Origin: Nitrospira sp.
Lineage (GTDB): Bacteria; Nitrospirota; Nitrospiria; Nitrospirales; Nitrospiraceae
DNA length: 64,000 nt
Direction: 5' to 3'
Assembly: GCA_035968315.1 (NCBI GenBank)
Contig: JAVYIN010000005.1
Span: 682,001-746,000, forward strand
Positions 12,533-24,673 of the stretch are shown piece after piece; within the stretch, counting starts at the first letter, position 1; every line of letters begins with the position of its first letter. Under the pieces are notes generated by a model. It did not search any database, was not told the DNA's origin, and saw only the letters and a program-made list of their open reading frames with translations. Made by a program: the position numbers and the translations under genes.

Positions 12533-16255
<3,723 letters not shown>

Positions 16256-16377
16256 GAATGGCTTAAGCCGAGCGCTGATGATACTGGAAGCCCCGGTCAC
16301 CAGCAAGACAACATTGCGATTTCTTGACAGACCTTCTCAGGCGCCGATACGATGACGGTGCCACAAGGAGGATCGCA

Positions 16378-17148
16378 TTGCGTACCCGACACCGCTGGTA
16401 CAGCCTGGCACTGCTGCTCTCTGCCCTCGTCCTTCCCCCCACGCTCTCAGCGGCCCCCTATTTCGAAGACGGCTTTCTCGGCTTGACGCAGAAAGAACTG
16501 CACGAACGATTGGGCATGCCGCAAGCCGTGCGGGACCGGAAATCCGCCCTGCGGGTCTTCACCTACTACCCCATCACCGACTGGCAGAAGTATTTCAGCA
16601 AATTGGTGTCGCCGGAAAACGGCGAGGACGTGTATACCTTCAAACGGAACAATATCGACGTACGCTATTCCTTCAGCTACACCATCGATCCCAATGACGC
16701 CAGCGACAATCGCCCGCTCTTTGTGCGCCTGGTGGACATCGAATTTTCTCCGCCCGTGCCGATTGCGCAAGTGCCTTCGCTGGTGCCGGAATTCAAACCT
16801 TCTCCCGAAGCAGGCTCCCCGGCCTTCCGCTCGAATATCTGGGTCCTGCTGTTCGAGGGGGCGCCCTCTCCCGCGGCCCGCTTTCTCATCAGAGAGAAAG
16901 GCAAGGAGCAGCTCGATTGGACTCTGACCTACCAACTCTTTTCCCTGCAAGGCCTCCCCGACCGGCTGACCACCAGCGCCACCGTCGATCGCATGGAAAT
17001 CGGCACCCAAAGCCTGCAGCTCGTCACACAGCGGCAGCGCCATACCCACGAACCGATCATCAATCCCTATTCGCCTGAGTTTGCCGCGCAGGCAGCCCCA
17101 TCGCCAGTTCAACGCAAACCAATCCCCATGCCCAAATACGCAGAATGA
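16378..17148 (+). CDS. Secreted hypothetical protein with BamE/SmpA-like start
   Basis: The 256-residue product begins at TTG 16378, placed by a perfect AAGGAGG 6-7 bases upstream. It has a signal peptide (RTRHRWYSLALLLSALVLPPTLSAA). Mature residues GFLGLTQKELHERLGMPQAVRDRKSALRVFTYYP resemble the helix-turn of SmpA/OmlA (BamE) proteins, in which a short helix precedes a conserved GxP. The rest is beta-rich and unassigned, with a Pro-rich tail (SPVQRKPIPMPKYAE). It is probably periplasmic. It diverges from metH with about 120 bases between them. No function is known. Confidence 0.6.
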   Translation: MRTRHRWYSLALLLSALVLPPTLSAAPYFEDGFLGLTQKELHERLGMPQAVRDRKSALRVFTYYPITDWQKYFSKLVSPENGEDVYTFKRNNIDVRYSFSYTIDPNDASDNRPLFVRLVDIEFSPPVPIAQVPSLVPEFKPSPEAGSPAFRSNIWVLLFEGAPSPAARFLIREKGKEQLDWTLTYQLFSLQGLPDRLTTSATVDRMEIGTQSLQLVTQRQRHTHEPIINPYSPEFAAQAAPSPVQRKPIPMPKYAE

Positions 17149-17205
17149 GCAGCGCAGCCTGCGGTAGATGCTTGGGGATATGTTGATGGGGTATTCCCTG
17201 GCCGG

Positions 17206-17784
17206 CTACTGGCCGGCTGGTTTGAGGCGATCCTGCTGGACTTGCCCGGCCGCAAGGGCTTTCTGTTTTAGGATGTCCGCCGGACCATCTTCGCTCACAT
17301 ACATCAGCAGCGGCGTCCCGATCCCGATGACCATGAGCAGGCCCAGCCCCAGCAGGCGCAGCATAGGACTCTTCGTCAGATACATGATGATCAGCAACAC
17401 AACCGCTGCCCCGCCCGCATACGTCAGGATCTGAGACTGACTGGGACTGATACCTGAAAATTGAATGGATCCGATAGTCGGTGCGGATCGCGGCTTCATC
17501 GACGGCACCGTAATACCGAACCCCTGCACGGTCTCACGCACGGTCTGCTTCGCCACCTCGAATTTGGAGGGGGGGATCACCTGGGGATCGGCTTGTTCAT
17601 GCGTCTGAACCTTCGCCCGGTACTTCTCGGGAATCGTGTCGGGCGAATCGGTCGCGTGCAGATTCCCCTGCTCGTCGAGATAGGAGTAGACCGTCCCGGC
17701 ATAGGATAGAGTTGCCCCAAGACTGAGCAGCAAAAGACTAACCAGCACGCCTGTTATGAAATCTTTACGCACTTGAGGTTTCAT
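17206..17784 (-). CDS. DUF4124 domain-containing membrane protein
   Basis: The 192-residue protein has an N-terminal signal or anchor (GVLVSLLLLSLGATLSYAG) and then the DUF4124 motif GTVYSYLDEQGNLHATDSPDTIPEKYRAKV. Two more hydrophobic segments follow near residues 127-145 (ILTYAGGAAVVLLIIMYL) and 150-172. The DUF4124 part would face the periplasm. The family is common in Gram-negative bacteria and has no defined role. The start ATG 17784 has GAGGTGG just upstream. It is flanked by other envelope genes of unknown function. Confidence 0.75.
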   Translation of the reverse strand: MKPQVRKDFITGVLVSLLLLSLGATLSYAGTVYSYLDEQGNLHATDSPDTIPEKYRAKVQTHEQADPQVIPPSKFEVAKQTVRETVQGFGITVPSMKPRSAPTIGSIQFSGISPSQSQILTYAGGAAVVLLIIMYLTKSPMLRLLGLGLLMVIGIGTPLLMYVSEDGPADILKQKALAAGQVQQDRLKPAGQ

Positions 17785-17937
17785 CTCCCACCTCACTTGG
17801 CTGATTGAGCACCAGACCCCCGACAAGCCCAGCCGGCCTATCTCGCTGAAATTTCATGAGAACCCGCCAGGCTTGGCTTGACTCACCACACACCCCTTGT
17901 TAGCATGCACCGGCTTAAACCGGAAGAAATAACGACT

Positions 17938-18381
17938 ATGGAACAGCCCCCCTCGACTATGGATCCCCTTGCCCTGGAACAGGAAGAACAGGCCTTTATC
18001 CGCCGGCCGCTTGTGCGCAAAGTCATCTATGCCTGCCTGGCCATCGCCTTCCTCTTGATGGTCGTCTGGCCGATGATCGTCCATTTCCAGGACCCTGATT
18101 TTTCAAAGCACATTGAGCAGCGCCGAGTGATGGCCGGCATGACGAAAGACCAGGTCCTCAAGTCCTGGGGCGGGCCGCAGACCATCAACACCTCCTTTAC
18201 CGCCGACGGCCTCCGCCGGGAAGAATGGATTTTCGAAGATTGGATCAGCACCTCCGAGGTGAAGCACCGCTATCTCTACTTTGAGGAAGGCGTGCTCATC
18301 GGCGGGTGGTTCGAAGGCTCGGAGGAACGGAGTCCCATGAATGCACCAGTAGACTCTCCTCATCCCAAGATGGGTCGATAA
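17938..18381 (+). CDS. Membrane-anchored BamE/SmpA-like protein
   Basis: The 147-residue protein has a cytoplasmic N-terminus, one membrane helix (KVIYACLAIAFLLMVVWPMIVHF, about residues 27-49) and a C-terminal domain with VMAGMTKDQVLKSWGGPQTINTSF...REEWIFEDW...HRYLYFEEGVLIG, the pattern of the SmpA/OmlA fold. Lipidation is not seen, unlike in true BamE, so it is an inner-membrane anchored relative. GGAAG lies about 10 bases before ATG 17938. pepM starts 28 bases downstream and may be co-transcribed. Confidence 0.65.
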   Translation: MEQPPSTMDPLALEQEEQAFIRRPLVRKVIYACLAIAFLLMVVWPMIVHFQDPDFSKHIEQRRVMAGMTKDQVLKSWGGPQTINTSFTADGLRREEWIFEDWISTSEVKHRYLYFEEGVLIGGWFEGSEERSPMNAPVDSPHPKMGR

Positions 18382-18408
18382 ACGAGCACTCACGGCAGGG
18401 ACCCCATT

Positions 18409-20043
18409 ATGAGTTCGACCCCCAATACCCGCACGACATCGCAATTCCGGAACCTGCTCCTGTCGGAACAGCTGGAGTTCATCTGCGAAGCCCACAACGG
18501 CCTAAGCGCCAAGATCGTCCAGGAAGCCGGATTCAAAGGCATTTGGGCCAGCGGCCTCTCGATCTCAGCCCAATTCGGCGTCCGCGACAATAACGAAGCC
18601 AGTTGGACCCAGGTGCTCGAAGATCTGGAATTCATGTCCGACGCCACCACGATTCCCATTCTCCTCGACGGCGATACCGGCTACGGCAACTTCAACAACA
18701 TGCAGCGGCTCGTCCGCAAACTGGAGCAGCGCAAGATCGCCGCCGTCTGCATCGAAGACAAGCTCTTCCCCAAGACCAATAGCTTCATCAAGGGCGGCGC
18801 CCAGCCCATGGCGGACATGCACGAGTTCTGCGGCAAGATCAAAGCTGGCAAAGACGCGCAGACCGACCCCGACTTTTCCATCATCGCCCGTGTCGAAGCC
18901 TTCATCTGCGGCTGGGGCCTGGCGGAAGCCCTGCGGCGCGCCGAGGCCTATCATCAGGCAGGCGCCGACGGCATCCTGATTCACAGCGCCTTGTCGGTGC
19001 CGGACGAAATCCTGGCATTCAAACAGGAATGGGGCAATCGCTGCCCGGTCGTTATCGTGCCGACGAAGTACTACGCCACGCCGACGGACGTGTTTCGCCA
19101 GCATGGGTTTTCCGTCGTCATTTGGGCCAATCACATGCTCCGGTCTTCCGTGACCGCCATGCAGAAGACAGCGAAGACCCTCAAGGAGCAGGAGCACCTG
19201 CTCTCGATCGAAGACAAAGTCGCGCCGGTATCAGAAATCTTTCGGCTGCAAAACGCCGCCGAACTGCAAGAGGCCGAAGACCGCTATCTGCCCAAAGGGG
19301 CCGAAGACACCAGCGCGATTGTGCTGGCCGCCTCTCGGGGAAAAGAACTGGGCGAACTCACCGAACAACAGCCCAAAACGATGGTCAAGATCCAGGGCGC
19401 GCCCATCCTCTCCCACATCGTGGACGCCTACAACGCCGTGGGCATCAAGGATATCGTCGTCGTGCGCGGGTACAAGAAAGACGCGGTCACTCTGCCCAAC
19501 CTGACCTACGTTGATAACGACGACTATGCCGACACCGGCGAGCTGGATTCGCTCCTCAAGGCCCTGAAGTCCAGAAAGGGACCGGCGCAGAGCACCATCA
19601 TTTCCTACGGGGATGTCCTGTTCAATAAGTACATCCCTCAGTCGCTCTGTCAGGAGAACGATGACTGCGTGATCTTCGTCGATAGCAACTGGCAGGAACA
19701 GAGCAGCTACGCCCGCCTGGGCGGATTCGCCGAATGTTCCATTCCCAATTCCAGAAAAGCCTTCAACGCCAAGATCTATCTCAAGCAATTGGGAGCTGCG
19801 CTCCCCAAAGACTCCATCCACGGTGTCTGGATGGGCTTCCTCAAAGTTTCCCCCAGCGCCACCACCCTCATCACCGGCATCATTGCCGAACTCCTGGCAA
19901 AGCCCGATAACCGCAAAGCCGCCATCCCCCAGCTACTCCAAGAACTGCTGAAATGGAACTATCCCATCCGCGTCCTCTATACAGCCGGCCATTGGCTCGA
20001 CATCAATAGCCTGGAGGATGTGGTGCAGGCGGGGAACTTTTGA
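18409..20043 (+). CDS. pepM: Phosphoenolpyruvate mutase fused to a nucleotidyltransferase domain
   Basis: The 544-residue protein has an isocitrate-lyase-fold domain (residues about 10-295) with the PEP mutase signature [10 protein letters not shown] (116-125, pattern EDKx5NS) and metal-binding [10 protein letters not shown] (D87, D89). This signature separates true mutases, which make phosphonopyruvate, from hydrolases. Residues about 305-540 form a sugar-nucleotidyltransferase-like domain: [15 protein letters not shown]...[13 protein letters not shown], then [10 protein letters not shown] and [11 protein letters not shown]. This order is the reverse of Fom1, in which the cytidylyltransferase comes first. 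The expected partner, phosphonopyruvate decarboxylase, is not nearby. It may feed a phosphonate cell-surface decoration (inference). Confidence 0.88.
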
Positions 20044-20125
20044 AGGTTGATTACTTCTTCCCTCTGCCATGACTTATTCTACTTCACCAGATGCACACTC
20101 TCTCTGACGCCTTGAAGGATACACC

Positions 20126-20407
20126 ATGAACCGAATACGACCAGAGCTGATCAAAGATAATCCGGCGGCCCCGCAACCCTATGTGAGCCCGAGGAGAAGC
20201 CGCACAAGCCCTCGTACTGTGTCGTCGGCACGGACCACAGCACAGGTCGGCATGAAAGAGGCGCTAAAGTTGTTGATGAGATCGGCGGAACGTTTCGTCG
20301 ACAGCCTGCCGGCATCGATAAATAAGAACAAGGAACTGCCCGCGCTTCTGATTGCGATGACCCAGGCGGAACGGCTGCTATCGGCCAAACGGACGCCAGC
20401 GAAATAG
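20126..20407 (+). CDS. Small hypothetical protein
   Basis: A 93-residue basic protein with a disordered N-terminal half rich in Pro, Arg and Ser (PYVSPRRSRTSPRTVSSARTTAQ) and a helical C-terminal half (MKEALKLLMRSAERFVDSLP...LPALLIAMTQAERLL). I recognise no family. AAGGA lies 8 bases before the ATG, which supports translation. It follows pepM by 82 bases on the same strand. Confidence 0.5.
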   Translation: MNRIRPELIKDNPAAPQPYVSPRRSRTSPRTVSSARTTAQVGMKEALKLLMRSAERFVDSLPASINKNKELPALLIAMTQAERLLSAKRTPAK

Positions 20408-20868
20408 GATGAATCTCGCAAGTGTCACTTCGACATCAGACAGGGCAGTCATAATGTGCCTGCCAATCACGAATAGCCGAGACGCTCCTATATCACTCCG
20501 ACAACCGCACCCTGCTCCCTCTTCTATCACAAATCGCAACGACAACAGACATTCCATCCTGACTGAACCCTTTCATCGCCCCCCTTTCTCAATCATTCTA
20601 TGAGAGCATGATCGCTTGCTCTGTTATCATAAAAGATACAGCACTGAATCTCTTCCGGTACGTATTTGATCATTTCCCGTTAAGTTTTTCTGGTTTATCT
20701 CAGCATTTGCTGGCAATTCATCACCCACAAGTACGGCACAGAACTCGCTCTACATATACAGCAGAAAACAACGAGATACGACACCGGGTTTTCGCACAGC
20801 ACCACACCCCTTCATGGAACCACGACGACTAACGCCGATGTGTCCATGAAAAAGCCAAGGAGGTTTTT
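20408..20868. other. AT-richer intergenic region without a gene
   Basis: Some 460 bases precede the DUF3365 gene. They are visibly richer in A and T than the neighbours, especially 20600-20760. I see no coding pattern. TATCAT at 20625-20630 might be a -10 element, but no -35 box stands at normal spacing. The stretch may hold an activator-dependent promoter or long leader. Confidence 0.35.
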
Positions 20869-21462
20869 ATGACATCCTCCAGCAAGTTGTTCAGGGGAGT
20901 TCTCATGTCGGTATTCGGATTAGGCATCGTCGGCTTCGTTGGGCCGAGCCATGCCGCGACGGAAGGAACAGCTGTGAGCCTGCCCATTGAAATGGTGGCG
21001 GACTATGTACATGCCGTCATCGAGGCAGACCGTGAAGTCTACACCAAGCACGTCGTTGAACGGATGCAGGCCAAAGGAGTGGTCGTGGCCTCGGAGAACT
21101 GGGAACAAAAGAATACACTCCCCCTACCGGCTCAATTCCTGATCGAGTCGGGCCGCGTGATGGCCAGAAAAAATATCGGTATCCAGTATCGACTCATTAG
21201 CCTCTGGCCGATCAATAAACGGAATGTGGCCTCCAGCGAGTTCGAGAAAACTGGCTTGGGCACCGTCCTCACGCATCCGACCAAACCCTATACCGGGTTT
21301 GTGACGGTAGGGGGCGCCCGGCACTTCCAGGCCGTCTATCCGGATCTCGCTGTAACCCAGGCTTGTATCGGCTGCCATAATGCCCATCAGGAGAGCCCCA
21401 AGCGGGACTTCAAGATCAATGATGTCATGGGAGCGATCGTGATCAGTATTCCCGTGAAATAG
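20869..21462 (+). CDS. DUF3365 (Tll0287-like) haem-binding periplasmic protein
   Basis: The 197-residue protein has a signal peptide (SSKLFRGVLMSVFGLGIVGFVGPSHA) and the Tll0287-like domain with VADYVHAVIEADREVYTKHVVERM near the N-terminus and a single c-type haem motif ACIGCHNAH near residue 170. The spacing after the haem site (KRDFKINDVMGAIVISIPV) is standard for the family. These proteins are PAS-like periplasmic haem sensors or redox proteins. GGAGG stands 5 bases before the ATG, one of the strongest ribosome sites in the window. It is a single gene, ending at a strong hairpin. Confidence 0.85.
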   Translation: MTSSSKLFRGVLMSVFGLGIVGFVGPSHAATEGTAVSLPIEMVADYVHAVIEADREVYTKHVVERMQAKGVVVASENWEQKNTLPLPAQFLIESGRVMARKNIGIQYRLISLWPINKRNVASSEFEKTGLGTVLTHPTKPYTGFVTVGGARHFQAVYPDLAVTQACIGCHNAHQESPKRDFKINDVMGAIVISIPVK

Positions 21463-21494
21463 TCAGGAGTGTGTAGCACCCTCTCCCTCAATGA

Positions 21495-21540
21495 CCGAAC
21501 AGCCTTGCGGTTCGCCCCTAACGACCGCAAGGTTGTTCGG
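21495..21540. terminator. Strong inverted repeat between convergent genes
   Basis: CCGAACA-CCTTGCGGT (from 21495) pairs with ACCGCAAGG-TGTTCGG (to 21540) with one mismatch in the stem and a loop of about 10 bases. It lies 33 bases after the DUF3365 stop and 30 bases from the rsuA-family stop, so it could end both transcripts. There is no clear T tract on either side, so this may be a stem that blocks exonucleases. Confidence 0.55.
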
Positions 21541-21570
21541 TGTCCGCCATCCAGTGAGCACGCCAAGCAC

Positions 21571-22308
21571 TCACAGCCTCAGTACCTTCCGTGCGTCCTC
21601 GATCGGCATCTCACGCCAGGCGCCGGGCGGAAGATCTTCCAGTGTAAATGGGCCGTATTGAATACGCCTGAGCCTGGTCACTTCATGCCCCAGTGCCAGG
21701 AACAACCGGCGAATTTCCCGATTCTTTCCCTGCACCAACACCACTTCCAGATGCGACTCGCGGCCGGAACTTTTTTGAATCTTCACACTGTGGCACTGGA
21801 GGCGCTCACCATTATCGACGACGCCAACCGTGGCGTCATTCGCTTGCGCCTCGGTGAATTCACCCCGCACAGATACCAAGTAGGTCCGCATCACTTTATT
21901 GGCCGGATCGGTGAGATAGCTCGACAAGACCGAATCATTGGTCAGCAACAGAAGCCCGCTGGTCGCTTGATCCAGCCGCCCGACGGCGTGCAGGTAGCCT
22001 AAGTCCGCCGGCAACACATCGAAGATAGTCTTCCGCGCCTTCTCATCACTATGTGTCGTGATGACCCCCTTGGGTTTGTGAAAGAGCAGAAACCGCTTGG
22101 CTGAATCCTGAATCGGCCGGTCATCAACCGAGATGGCGTCTTTCGGCCACAAGACCCAGGTGGCCGGATCGCGAACCACCCGCCCATTGATCTGCACGCG
22201 CCCGGCGCGGACCCACTCCTGGCTTGTGCCACGAGAGGCGATGCCTAGCTTCGAGAGCAAGCGATCCACCGTGTAGCGTTTGGAGGAGACCTTAGACTTC
22301 AGTGACAT
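21571..22308 (-). CDS. rRNA pseudouridine synthase, RsuA/RluB/E/F family
   Basis: The 245-residue enzyme has an N-terminal S4 RNA-binding domain (YTVDRLLSKLGIASRGTSQEWVRAGRVQINGRVV) and the synthase core with HKPKGVITTHSDEKARKTIFDVLP, the catalytic motif HAVGRLDQATSGLLLLTND (Asp in GRLD) and the closing NREIRRLFLALGHEVTRLRRIQYGPF. It isomerises a uridine in 16S or 23S rRNA; the family member and target site cannot be told from the sequence alone. It is the last of a run of minus-strand genes downstream of aqpZ, but 310 bases of aqpZ-side sequence separate their starts and they may be independent. Confidence 0.92.
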   Translation of the reverse strand: MSLKSKVSSKRYTVDRLLSKLGIASRGTSQEWVRAGRVQINGRVVRDPATWVLWPKDAISVDDRPIQDSAKRFLLFHKPKGVITTHSDEKARKTIFDVLPADLGYLHAVGRLDQATSGLLLLTNDSVLSSYLTDPANKVMRTYLVSVRGEFTEAQANDATVGVVDNGERLQCHSVKIQKSSGRESHLEVVLVQGKNREIRRLFLALGHEVTRLRRIQYGPFTLEDLPPGAWREMPIEDARKVLRL

Positions 22309-22437
22309 GGTGAACTCTGTTCAATGATAAAGCCTGATGGCGAAACGCAATAATCTACCGGCATTGAGCAGACCTGACAATCCGCAGGCCACCGGGAATA
22401 TAGGCCTCGGCAACCTGCGGCGCGGTGAAAAACTTGG

Positions 22438-23127
22438 TTACGACTTTTTGCTTCCCGCGATCATCGGATAGGCCAGTCCGGCCAATGCCGCGCCGATGAT
22501 CGGAGCGAGCCAGAAGAGCCAGAGCTGCGCGATCGCCCACCCTCCAACGAAAAGGGCCGGACCGGTGCTCCGGGCGGGATTCACGGAGAGATTGGTGACC
22601 GGAATCCCGATCAGGTGGATCAATGTCAGTCCAAGCCCAATTGCAATCGGCGCAAAACCTTGCGGCGCCCGGCTATCCGTAGCCCCCAAAATGATGAAGA
22701 GAAACATGAAGGTCAGCACGACTTCGGCTATCAAGGCCGCCATCATCGAATAGCCGCCGGGTGAATGCTCGGCAAAGCCGTTGGAAGCAAACCCGCCGAG
22801 TTCAAATCCCGGCTTGCCGCTCGCAATCAGATACAACACCCCCGCTCCAACAACGGCGCCGAGGACCTGTGCGCCGATATAGCCGGGCAGATCGCTCGCA
22901 GGGAATCGCTTCCCCACAACCAATCCCACCGACACGGCAGGATTCAGGTGACAGCCGGAAACATGGCCGATGGCATAGGCCATGGTCAAGACCGTCAGAC
23001 CAAACGCAAACGAGACCCCGAGTAACCCGATGCCGACCTCTGGAAACGCCGCGGCTAACACGGCGCTCCCGCACCCGCCAAAAACCAGCCAGAACGTCCC
23101 CACCGCCTCTGCTGCGAGTCGATTCAT
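22438..23127 (-). CDS. aqpZ: Aquaporin Z
   Basis: The 229-residue channel has six membrane helices and two NPA boxes, HLNPAVS (62-64) and VNPARST (183-185). His171 (LIHLIGIP) and Arg186 (NPAR), with an aromatic residue in SFAFGLTV and a small residue in TNLSVN, give the narrow water-specific selectivity filter of AqpZ rather than a glycerol channel. It moves water across the inner membrane. It stands alone on the minus strand. Confidence 0.95.
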
Positions 23128-23253
23128 CGTCGTTCCTCCACATAGGGTTCAGTGCTGAAACCGAACTATGCGCGCGGATCTCAAAAAGCGCAAGGCGCAC
23201 GGATCGAGTACGGTCTCACAGGAGAGAGATAATTGAGGGTGTTCAGAACCCTG

Positions 23254-23490
23254 CTACGCAGTAGGCCCGACTTCGCGAAGAGGCATCCGCAGCCGACGCA
23301 ACAAAATGCCGGTCCGCTCCCAATCGGCCTCGTCGACCAATAGCCGGCAGAGCAAGGCGGAACATCCGGGATAGAGACTGCTGATGTGTTCGTGCTGAAA
23401 AAAACATGAGATGGCGTTGGCCTCGCACAGGCTCTTGATGATCGCGAGTTCCCCCATGTCTTGAGCGGTGGTCAGATAGCGCATTGCCAT
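23254..23490 (-). CDS. DUF2007-type putative signal-transducing protein
   Basis: A 78-residue protein with the DUF2007 layout: MRYLTTAQDMGELAIIKSLCEANAISCFFQHEHISSLYP followed by CRLLVDEADWERTGILLRRL. In this family a ferredoxin-like fold is formed by a first helix that begins about ten residues in and a final helix after the valine-aspartate strand. Function is unknown. ATG at 23490 or 23484 could be the start; the ribosome site is weak. It lies downstream of a small hypothetical gene on the same strand, 88 bases away. Confidence 0.65.
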   Translation of the reverse strand: MAMRYLTTAQDMGELAIIKSLCEANAISCFFQHEHISSLYPGCSALLCRLLVDEADWERTGILLRRLRMPLREVGPTA

Positions 23491-23578
23491 GGGCCAGCGG
23501 GTTCCCCTGACACAGGATATCGGACAGATTGCGCAAGCATTTGCACTTTTCCCCCGTCCCCTCTACACTCGCCCTCAC

Positions 23579-23863
23579 CTACGGGGTTTCGGTAATGCGC
23601 ACACGGCGCTCCTGGCCAGGACCGCCTGAAACGGTCAACACCCGTTTCCACTCGCGCACCTGATACACAGCCCAGGCGTTCGGCTGGCCCTTGTAGAATG
23701 CGGCAGGATCTTCGCCGCTGGCGTTCAAGAAGATCGGTTCGGTGAACCCTTCTTCAAGCACGTAATCCAGCAGGCATTCGGTGGAGAACCCCGGCCCGCG
23801 CAACGCGATGTCGGCCAGCAGGGTGAGAATGTCGTCCGGGTTTTGAATGGTAATGGGATTCAT
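23579..23863 (-). CDS. Hypothetical protein
   Basis: A 94-residue acidic soluble protein (NPDDILTLLADIALRGPGFSTECLLDYVLEEGFTEPIFLNASGEDPAAFY...VYQVREWKRVLTV). I recognise no family. AAGGAG lies 5 bases before ATG 23863, which fixes the start and supports real translation. It diverges from the diiron oxygenase-like gene at 23924 with only 60 bases between, so the two share a promoter region. Confidence 0.6.
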   Translation of the reverse strand: MNPITIQNPDDILTLLADIALRGPGFSTECLLDYVLEEGFTEPIFLNASGEDPAAFYKGQPNAWAVYQVREWKRVLTVSGGPGQERRVRITETP

Positions 23864-23923
23864 CACAGCTCCTTATCGGGCCGCCGGATTCTAACGAGGC
23901 GGCCTTCAGGAAGGCAAGGTACG

Positions 23924-24673
23924 ATGGCAGCACGACTGACGCAAGCCCGGTTCCTCGACGCGCTTCTGAAAATCATGGACGGCAAACACCATTGGGCCTG
24001 GGACCATTTCGCCAATGGGCGCCTCACCAAAGACCAGCTCAAGATTCATTTCCAGCAGGAATACTTCGTCTACGTGCGCGATTTCCCCGTGTTCCTCGCG
24101 CGCATCCACGGCCAGAATCCGCCGCCAGACGTGCGCCGCATGCTGGCCGAGAATATTTATGAAGAAGATACCGGCGGGTTGTCGCTCGGCCAATCGCATC
24201 CAGAACTCTTTCTCACGATGATGGAAGGGCTGGGGTTTTCCACCAAGGACTTCGAGCGGGTCCGGCCTCTCCCCGCCAGCCGCGCGTATCGCGCCTGGCT
24301 CGACCAGATGTCCACCCACAAGCAATGGGTGCTCGGCGCGGCCACGCTCACGGTCTTCGTCGAAGGCAGCGTGAAAGATCGGAAGGAGCTGCTCGAACCC
24401 TCGAAACCGAAGACGGCGGAAGAGATCGAGGCCACGATCAAGAACCATCCCCTGGTGCGCTTTCATGGAGCCCATCCCGACTCCATGGATCTCATTCGGG
24501 CTCACCAGCTCGTGGAGGCTGGCCACCGGCATGACGCCTATAAGATGGTGACGGAATACACGCCCTCCGCGGCGCAGCAACAATCCGTCATGACCAGCCT
24601 CAAGAAAAGCCTGCGCCTCTGGCTGGCCTACCGGGATGCGGTCGCCAAAGCCTGCGGGATCAAGAAGGGGTAA
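23924..24673 (+). CDS. Haem-oxygenase-like diiron enzyme (CADD/PqqC-like family)
   Basis: The 249-residue all-helical protein matches the CADD/TenA/PqqC group (HHWAWDHFANGRLTKDQLKIHFQQEYFVYVRDFP). Candidate iron ligands are E81 in NIYEEDTGG, H92 in QSHPELF, E147 in TVFVEGS, and H194, E198 and H201 in an HxxxExxH run, close to the E-H-E-HxxxDxxH set of CADD. Known relatives make p-aminobenzoate from their own tyrosine (Chlamydia CADD, Nitrosomonas NE1434) or act on PQQ precursors. The true reaction is not known. It overlaps the next gene by one base (TAATG), so the two are translationally coupled. Confidence 0.75.
   Translation: MAARLTQARFLDALLKIMDGKHHWAWDHFANGRLTKDQLKIHFQQEYFVYVRDFPVFLARIHGQNPPPDVRRMLAENIYEEDTGGLSLGQSHPELFLTMMEGLGFSTKDFERVRPLPASRAYRAWLDQMSTHKQWVLGAATLTVFVEGSVKDRKELLEPSKPKTAEEIEATIKNHPLVRFHGAHPDSMDLIRAHQLVEAGHRHDAYKMVTEYTPSAAQQQSVMTSLKKSLRLWLAYRDAVAKACGIKKG

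Follow-up and report, generated by a model that had tools for sequence, protein, structure and literature searches.

The window, a stretch of 64,000 nucleotides from a Nitrospira-like genome, carries on its plus strand a gene of the aepX/ppm type that codes for a PEP mutase (Ppm) fused to a nucleotidyltransferase (NTase). Its features are the following.

18409..20043 (+): aepX/ppm-like gene for a Ppm-NTase fusion of 544 aa (open reading frame; TIGR02320 and PF12804 matches)
18445..19257 (+): PEP mutase domain, residues 13-283 (TIGR02320, 389.5 bits; structures 1m1b and 1s2v)
18754..18783 (+): Ppm motif EDKx5NS, residues 116-125 (pattern match)
19312..20040 (+): fused NTase domain, residues 302-544, with the PntC/LicC fold and a non-PntC active site (PF12804; 6pd2; residue tally)
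19327..19347 (+): altered nucleotide loop AASRGKE, residues 307-313, with Glu313 at the position of PntC Arg15 (LicC and Tde-PntC alignments)
19372..19377 (+): P322-K323, the retained equivalent of PntC Lys25 (residue tally)
19606..19614 (+): Y400-G401-D402, with the metal-binding Asp (D106 equivalent) retained and Tyr replacing the acid that contacts the AEP amine (E104 equivalent) (residue tally)

An earlier note on this DNA had described such a fusion with an intact EDKx5NS motif, and our profile searches agree with it: the N-terminal domain (residues 13-283) scored 389.5 bits against TIGR02320 (PEP_mutase, cut-off 319.55), its closest solved structure is the mussel PEP mutase 1m1b (E 4.5e-128) and the motif, defined for Ppm in the accessible part of Rice et al. 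2019 (PMC6697681), is complete at residues 116-125. The C-terminal domain scored 50.3 bits against PF12804 (cut-off 27, residues 303-424). In an AlphaFold model of the fusion (47-sequence alignment, mean pLDDT 87.8, pTM 0.56) the first domain resembles the mussel Ppm 1s2v (Z 37.7), and residues 299-544 of the predicted structure resemble PntC of Treponema denticola (Tde-PntC, 6pd2; Z 28.1, rmsd 2.0, 226 residues aligned); as the Ppm domain dominates the list of structural matches (VIA list), other NTase families barely ranked in it. The gene probably makes the C-P bond for a surface phosphonate in this Nitrospira-like bacterium. A phage origin of the fusion was rejected, since four phage records matched but none over 80% of the query, and a PHROGs search gave a single weak match of unknown function.

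No phosphonopyruvate decarboxylase (Ppd) gene or remnant was detected near ppm when the Ppd of a relative was compared with window positions 15001-24000 by tblastn (best E 0.079), as the earlier note had said. Its suggestion that ppm may be linked to the envelope genes around it was not supported: of 16 loci compared from relatives, none has the two upstream envelope genes beside ppm. Only the downstream gene for a Tll0287-like domain protein (20869-21462, plus strand, PF11845) recurs there, with high identity in 2 of the 16 loci, and a distant response-regulator match was also found in 2. Further downstream, 23843-24673 (plus strand) encodes a TENA/haem-oxygenase-like iron-containing redox enzyme (PF14518).

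Partner genes on a second contig and in relatives

The genome from which the window was taken (G000) is 99.97% complete and consists of 11 contigs, the window being part of contig C5. On contig C11, positions 18024-22473 (G000:C11) carry on one strand, in this order, ppdA, ppdB, a gene for AEP transaminase (AEPT), a stand-alone pntC and a gene for a CDP-alcohol phosphotransferase. The gene in the window is thus not an 'orphan', as its partners are clustered elsewhere in the same genome. The products of ppdA and ppdB are the two halves of a phosphonopyruvate/sulfopyruvate decarboxylase and stay below the NCBIfam equivalog cut-offs: against TIGR03297 they scored 135.6 and 175.7 bits as separate halves, with a cut-off of 312.5 that was set for a single chain, and PpdB scored 186.5 bits against TIGR03846 (sulfopyruvate decarboxylase beta, cut-off 221.5), more than its 175.7 bits against TIGR03297. 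AEPT reached 348.6 bits against TIGR03301 (cut-off 360.8) and has PhnW (1m32, E 1.3e-60) as its top match in the PDB. The top PDB match of the stand-alone PntC is Tde-PntC (6pd1, E 2.4e-14); in the alignment it retains the equivalents of R15, K25, D106, K153, E196, E220 and D222 and has an Asp at the E104 position, so that it shows both the PntC signature and the acidic residues. The CDP-alcohol phosphotransferase matched PF01066 with 40.7 bits (cut-off 22), and the CDP-OH motif DxxDGxxARx8Gx3Dx3D is intact at residue 327.

At E <= 1e-30 the window Ppm is the one PF13714 protein of the genome. Neither PhnJ nor LicD was found in the genome search and the best PhnX candidate scored 43.9 bits with a cut-off of 220, by which we rejected a catabolic role for AEPT and LicD as the transfer step. 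Taken together with the gene set on C11, these results make one AEP pathway distributed over two loci the simplest reading, and the C11 genes apparently cover every step that leads from phosphonopyruvate over AEP and CMP-AEP to a lipid-type acceptor. For the canonical type of Ppm we did not find the combination that the earlier note had held against a phosphonate pathway, namely a genome devoid of phosphonate enzymes together with a loss of key residues in relatives.

Our main reading, to which we give a probability of about 0.7, is that the window gene supplies phosphonopyruvate to this two-locus AEP tailoring pathway and that its fused NTase is not the AEP cytidylyltransferase but a member of a separate subfamily. 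The Ppm domain would convert PEP to phosphonopyruvate, which PpdA/PpdB would decarboxylate to phosphonoacetaldehyde and thereby pull the unfavourable mutase step; that this step needs a follow-on enzyme had been expected by the earlier note and is supported here. AEPT would then form AEP, the stand-alone PntC would activate it to CMP-AEP and the CDP-alcohol phosphotransferase would transfer AEP to an alcohol, with a membrane lipid as the most likely acceptor, while the fused NTase domain may act on another acceptor or regulate the mutase. We infer every one of these reactions, the lipid acceptor and the role of the fused domain from sequence families, co-occurrence, active-site residues and the predicted fold. 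The weakest parts of the explanation are the substrate of PpdAB, the alignment at E196 and K153 (see below) and the minority of genomes where a second PntC was not detected.

Among 98 genomes searched, including that of the window, 93 carry a Ppm-NTase fusion, 90 carry AEPT and 88 carry both, which is 88/93 of the genomes with a fused Ppm. By identity the 93 fusions comprise 54 of type A (72-100%), 4 intermediate ones (49-55%) and 35 of type B (35-44%). Within the genus of the window ppm lies no more than 10 kb from AEPT in 22 of the 23 genomes with type B but in none of the 34 with type A (AEPT is on another contig in 30, far away on the same one in 2 and missing in 2); outside the genus this was the case in 0/36 genomes, 3 of them without AEPT. 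Types A and B were found together in no genome examined, and given this distribution the type-A ppm seems to work for the operon in trans; the best reading is a replacement in trans of one ppm type by the other. The operon proteins of two type-B loci compared are 69-96% identical to those of G000. In one relative (G069) pntC directly adjoins ppm (L051) and the operon of ppdAB, AEPT and the CDP-alcohol phosphotransferase gene (L066) has no pntC. Eleven type-A genomes possess a full-length Ppd just downstream of ppm in addition to ppdAB, so that in these relatives the type-A ppm may serve a second product.

With these data it can be asked whether the C11 operon makes a sulfonate or some other product, with the window Ppm belonging to an unrelated pathway. 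The slightly higher score of PpdB as a sulfopyruvate decarboxylase beta subunit would fit this, as would the scores of PpdA, PpdB and AEPT below their equivalog cut-offs, but we consider it improbable: a phosphonate-type PntC and a CDP-alcohol transferase lie within the operon, the nearest structure of AEPT is PhnW, fused Ppm and AEPT co-occur in 88/93 genomes and the rearrangement in G069, where pntC lies beside ppm, ties both loci together. The two-locus AEP pathway is our preferred reading. The near-universal AEP tailoring gene set makes surface phosphonates worth seeking in this Nitrospira-like lineage, and judged by titles and abstracts we found no paper reporting them in Nitrospira.

The type-B Ppm of the Nitrospira group (for example L046:10816-12495, plus strand) deserve separate mention. 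In 24 of the 25 examined, out of 35 classed as B, the motif reads EDNV(Y/F)PKRCS and not EDKx5NS, and against TIGR02320 the type-B protein scored 271.6 bits, which is under the cut-off. Methylisocitrate lyases also carry KRC, with the Cys at the same place. Since type-B Ppm is the sole PF13714 protein in nine genomes of the genus and adjoins the AEP operon, it may represent either a lyase or a PEP mutase overlooked by motif filters. One protein of type B by identity (L207 from G077) has the canonical motif EDKLFPKVNS and represents another Ppm type. At G012:C1:1224268-1225987 AEPT and PntC are present a second time, in a broken copy interrupted by in-frame stops, and one type-A genome encodes an extra Ppm-like protein with 40% identity in an open frame of 479 aa (G037:C5:56062-56901).

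The active site of the fused domain

For a comparison with the stand-alone enzymes we aligned 123 distinct fused domains (30 + 13 from Nitrospirales, 3 from plasmids and 77 from a genome scan), a set made up of the relatives, three plasmids and the best 80 of at least 588 scan matches and hence leaning towards our query, with 54 distinct stand-alone NTases (17, 3 and 34 in the same order), which were chosen by similarity to two PntCs (E <= 1e-10) and are not a random NTase sample. Tde-PntC and LicC were added as references; at E104-D106 and K153 the comparison rests on Tde-PntC, because LicC is shifted by 1-2 columns or gapped there. The equivalents of P24, K25 and D106 are invariant in both sets (123/123 and 54/54). 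The other positions separate them: at R15 an Arg is present in 1/123 fused versus 54/54 stand-alone domains, and at E104 all 123 fused domains have Tyr or Phe versus Asp or Glu in 53/54. Lys at K153 was found in 9/123 versus 53/54 and Glu or Asp at E196 in 1/123 versus 54/54, both in regions aligned at about 22% identity and E196 weakly so. At E220 the fused domains have Glu in 4 cases (Asp in 96) and at D222 Asp in 39 (Asn in 84), versus 54/54 for both in the stand-alone set. The window domain accordingly misses the PntC signature GxG(T/S)Rx4-8PK, reading AASRGKEL...PK with the first Gly replaced by Ser309 and Arg15 by Glu313 while PK is retained, and it lacks the acidic contacts to the AEP amine, with Y400 at E104 and P507 at the weakly aligned E196. 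According to the accessible part of the work on Tde-PntC (PMC6697681), E104 and E196 face the AEP amine, and replacing R15, K25 or K153 by alanine reduces the activity to less than 10% of wild type.

In an unrooted tree of 91 rows the fused and the stand-alone domains are split with support of 100/99, types A and B forming one group opposite the stand-alone enzymes, so two independent fusions for these types are not required. The residues that the fused domains miss and this clean split led us to assign the CTP activation step to the separate PntC, which fits the sequences best. Of the earlier proposal that the fused NTase activates a phosphonate with CTP, which is then put on a lipid or polysaccharide, activation and a lipid-type acceptor thus stand by gene content, but the fused domain as activator does not, as it has lost key PntC residues and the genome has a separate canonical PntC.

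The fused domain has conserved residues of its own, namely S309 (109 of 123), R310 (Arg in 104), E378 (121), Y400 (113), W474 (110) and H528 (99). Its dN/dS of 0.07-0.16 in 9 of 10 ortholog pairs (dS being saturated in the tenth) points to purifying selection, which is tighter in the Ppm domain (0.02-0.05, ten ortholog pairs). Between genomes the stand-alone PntC is more similar than the fused NTase of the same genome pair, with identities of 97% versus 86% (G014), 92% versus 82% (G022), 91% versus 83% (G025) and 89% versus 79% (G026). These data suggest a distinct, constrained subfamily which differs from a standard PntC without plain signs of decay and which may use another acceptor or have a regulatory function.

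The domain could still be active if R310 replaced Arg15. It would then be a cytidylyltransferase whose substrate is AEP or some other phosphonate, R310 of AASRG taking the role of Arg15 and the separate PntC serving a second acceptor or being partly redundant. The PntC fold of the predicted model, K323 and D402 in 123/123 and the domain's own conserved residues under purifying selection speak for this, but we find it rather unlikely since most fused domains have lost Lys153 and the two acidic contacts to the AEP amine, the alanine variants of R15 and K153 mentioned above bring Tde-PntC below 10% of wild type and five type-B fusions in the alignment have Phe at the R310 position, with no Arg at R15 either. 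Alternatively, the domain may bind CTP or CMP-AEP as a pseudo-nucleotidyltransferase and serve the mutase as a regulator or scaffold. Several catalytic residues are gone with fold and constraint retained, the domain evolves faster than the stand-alone PntC of the same genome and Ppm without such a tail exist, for example in mussel; against this, the domain has kept Lys25, the metal Asp and a conserved motif of the GHWxD type, and we regard this role as possible with the odds somewhat against it.

Fusions in other phyla and known systems

The genome scan returned at least 588 confirmed fusion matches from many phyla. Among the best 80 of these, which were kept, a separate NTase (HMM E < 1e-20) is encoded in the examined flanks of 38, and each of these 38 belongs to the 67 loci that lie outside the Nitrospira group. 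A genome-wide PntC search for 32 loci (the 29 other non-Nitrospira loci and three whose only nearby NTase is a more distant one) covered 31 genomes lacking a strong PntC near ppm. In 21 of these a separate PntC-like gene was matched at E <= 1e-8, in a few cases weakly. All 13 Paraburkholderia have such a gene, with 80-84% identity. An intact separate PntC was not found in 10 of the 31 genomes, where a second query returned a broken copy (1), only the fused gene itself (8) or nothing (1). Near ppm, two of the ten encode a further NTase of more distant type (about E 1e-24), and without these and the genome with the broken copy 7 remain, most of them MAGs. Such genomes argue for an active fused domain, the reading that we judged rather unlikely above.

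A similar arrangement is found on plasmids of Roseomonas marmotae and Mycetohabitans rhizoxinica, where one annotated cluster combines a fused aepX with aepY, AEPT and a CDP-alcohol transferase and also encodes a separate 'phosphocholine cytidylyltransferase family protein'. The window genome has the same set of fused aepX, separate cytidylyltransferase, decarboxylase, AEPT and CDP-alcohol transferase, but whereas the plasmids combine all of them in one cluster with a single-chain Ppd, it has two loci and a split Ppd. The Pnt (phosphonyl tailoring) pathway, as described in the accessible part of Rice et al. 2019 (PMC6697681), also comprises a Ppm fused to PF12804 together with Ppd, AEPT and a separate PntC, and in some clusters the ppm-fused NTase is accompanied by another NTase at a distance of one or two genes. 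The window genome differs from it in the split over two loci, the split Ppd, the CDP-alcohol transferase and a fused domain without key PntC active-site residues.

According to the same part of that work PF12804 is the domain most commonly fused to Ppm, and about a third of the motif-bearing Ppm proteins carry it, which was read as a sign of CTP activation; in this part we found no discussion of the active site of the Ppm-fused domain. A literature search on Ppm-nucleotidyltransferase fusions and PntC, with subscription journals mostly outside its coverage, returned no other paper on the fused domain. The residue losses call into question the published counts that treat PF12804 fusions as nucleotidyl activation, and if the domain is not an activator, the commonest attachment to the enzyme behind biogenic C-P bonds loses its assigned job. 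As a doubtful but more general idea, the NTase on PF12804-type PEP mutases might be no PntC at all but an ancient separate subfamily that controls or traps the mutase, either by sensing CTP or CMP-AEP or by nucleotidylation of phosphonopyruvate to hold the equilibrium, and fused PF12804 domains would then drop out of the counts of nucleotidyl activation in phosphonate biosynthesis.

Two further proteins allow a comparison. The PntC-AEPT protein of T. denticola (6pd1/6pd2) shares its fold with the fused domain and its active-site residues, or a conservative exchange, with the PntC on C11, but its PntC is fused to AEPT and not to Ppm, and the window domain has no equivalents of its R15, E104, E196 and K153. 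Fom1 is likewise a Ppm fused to a nucleotidyltransferase, which in this case is an N-terminal PF01467 cytidylyltransferase acting on hydroxyethylphosphonate (PMC6697681, accessible part), unlike the C-terminal PF12804 domain of the window protein.
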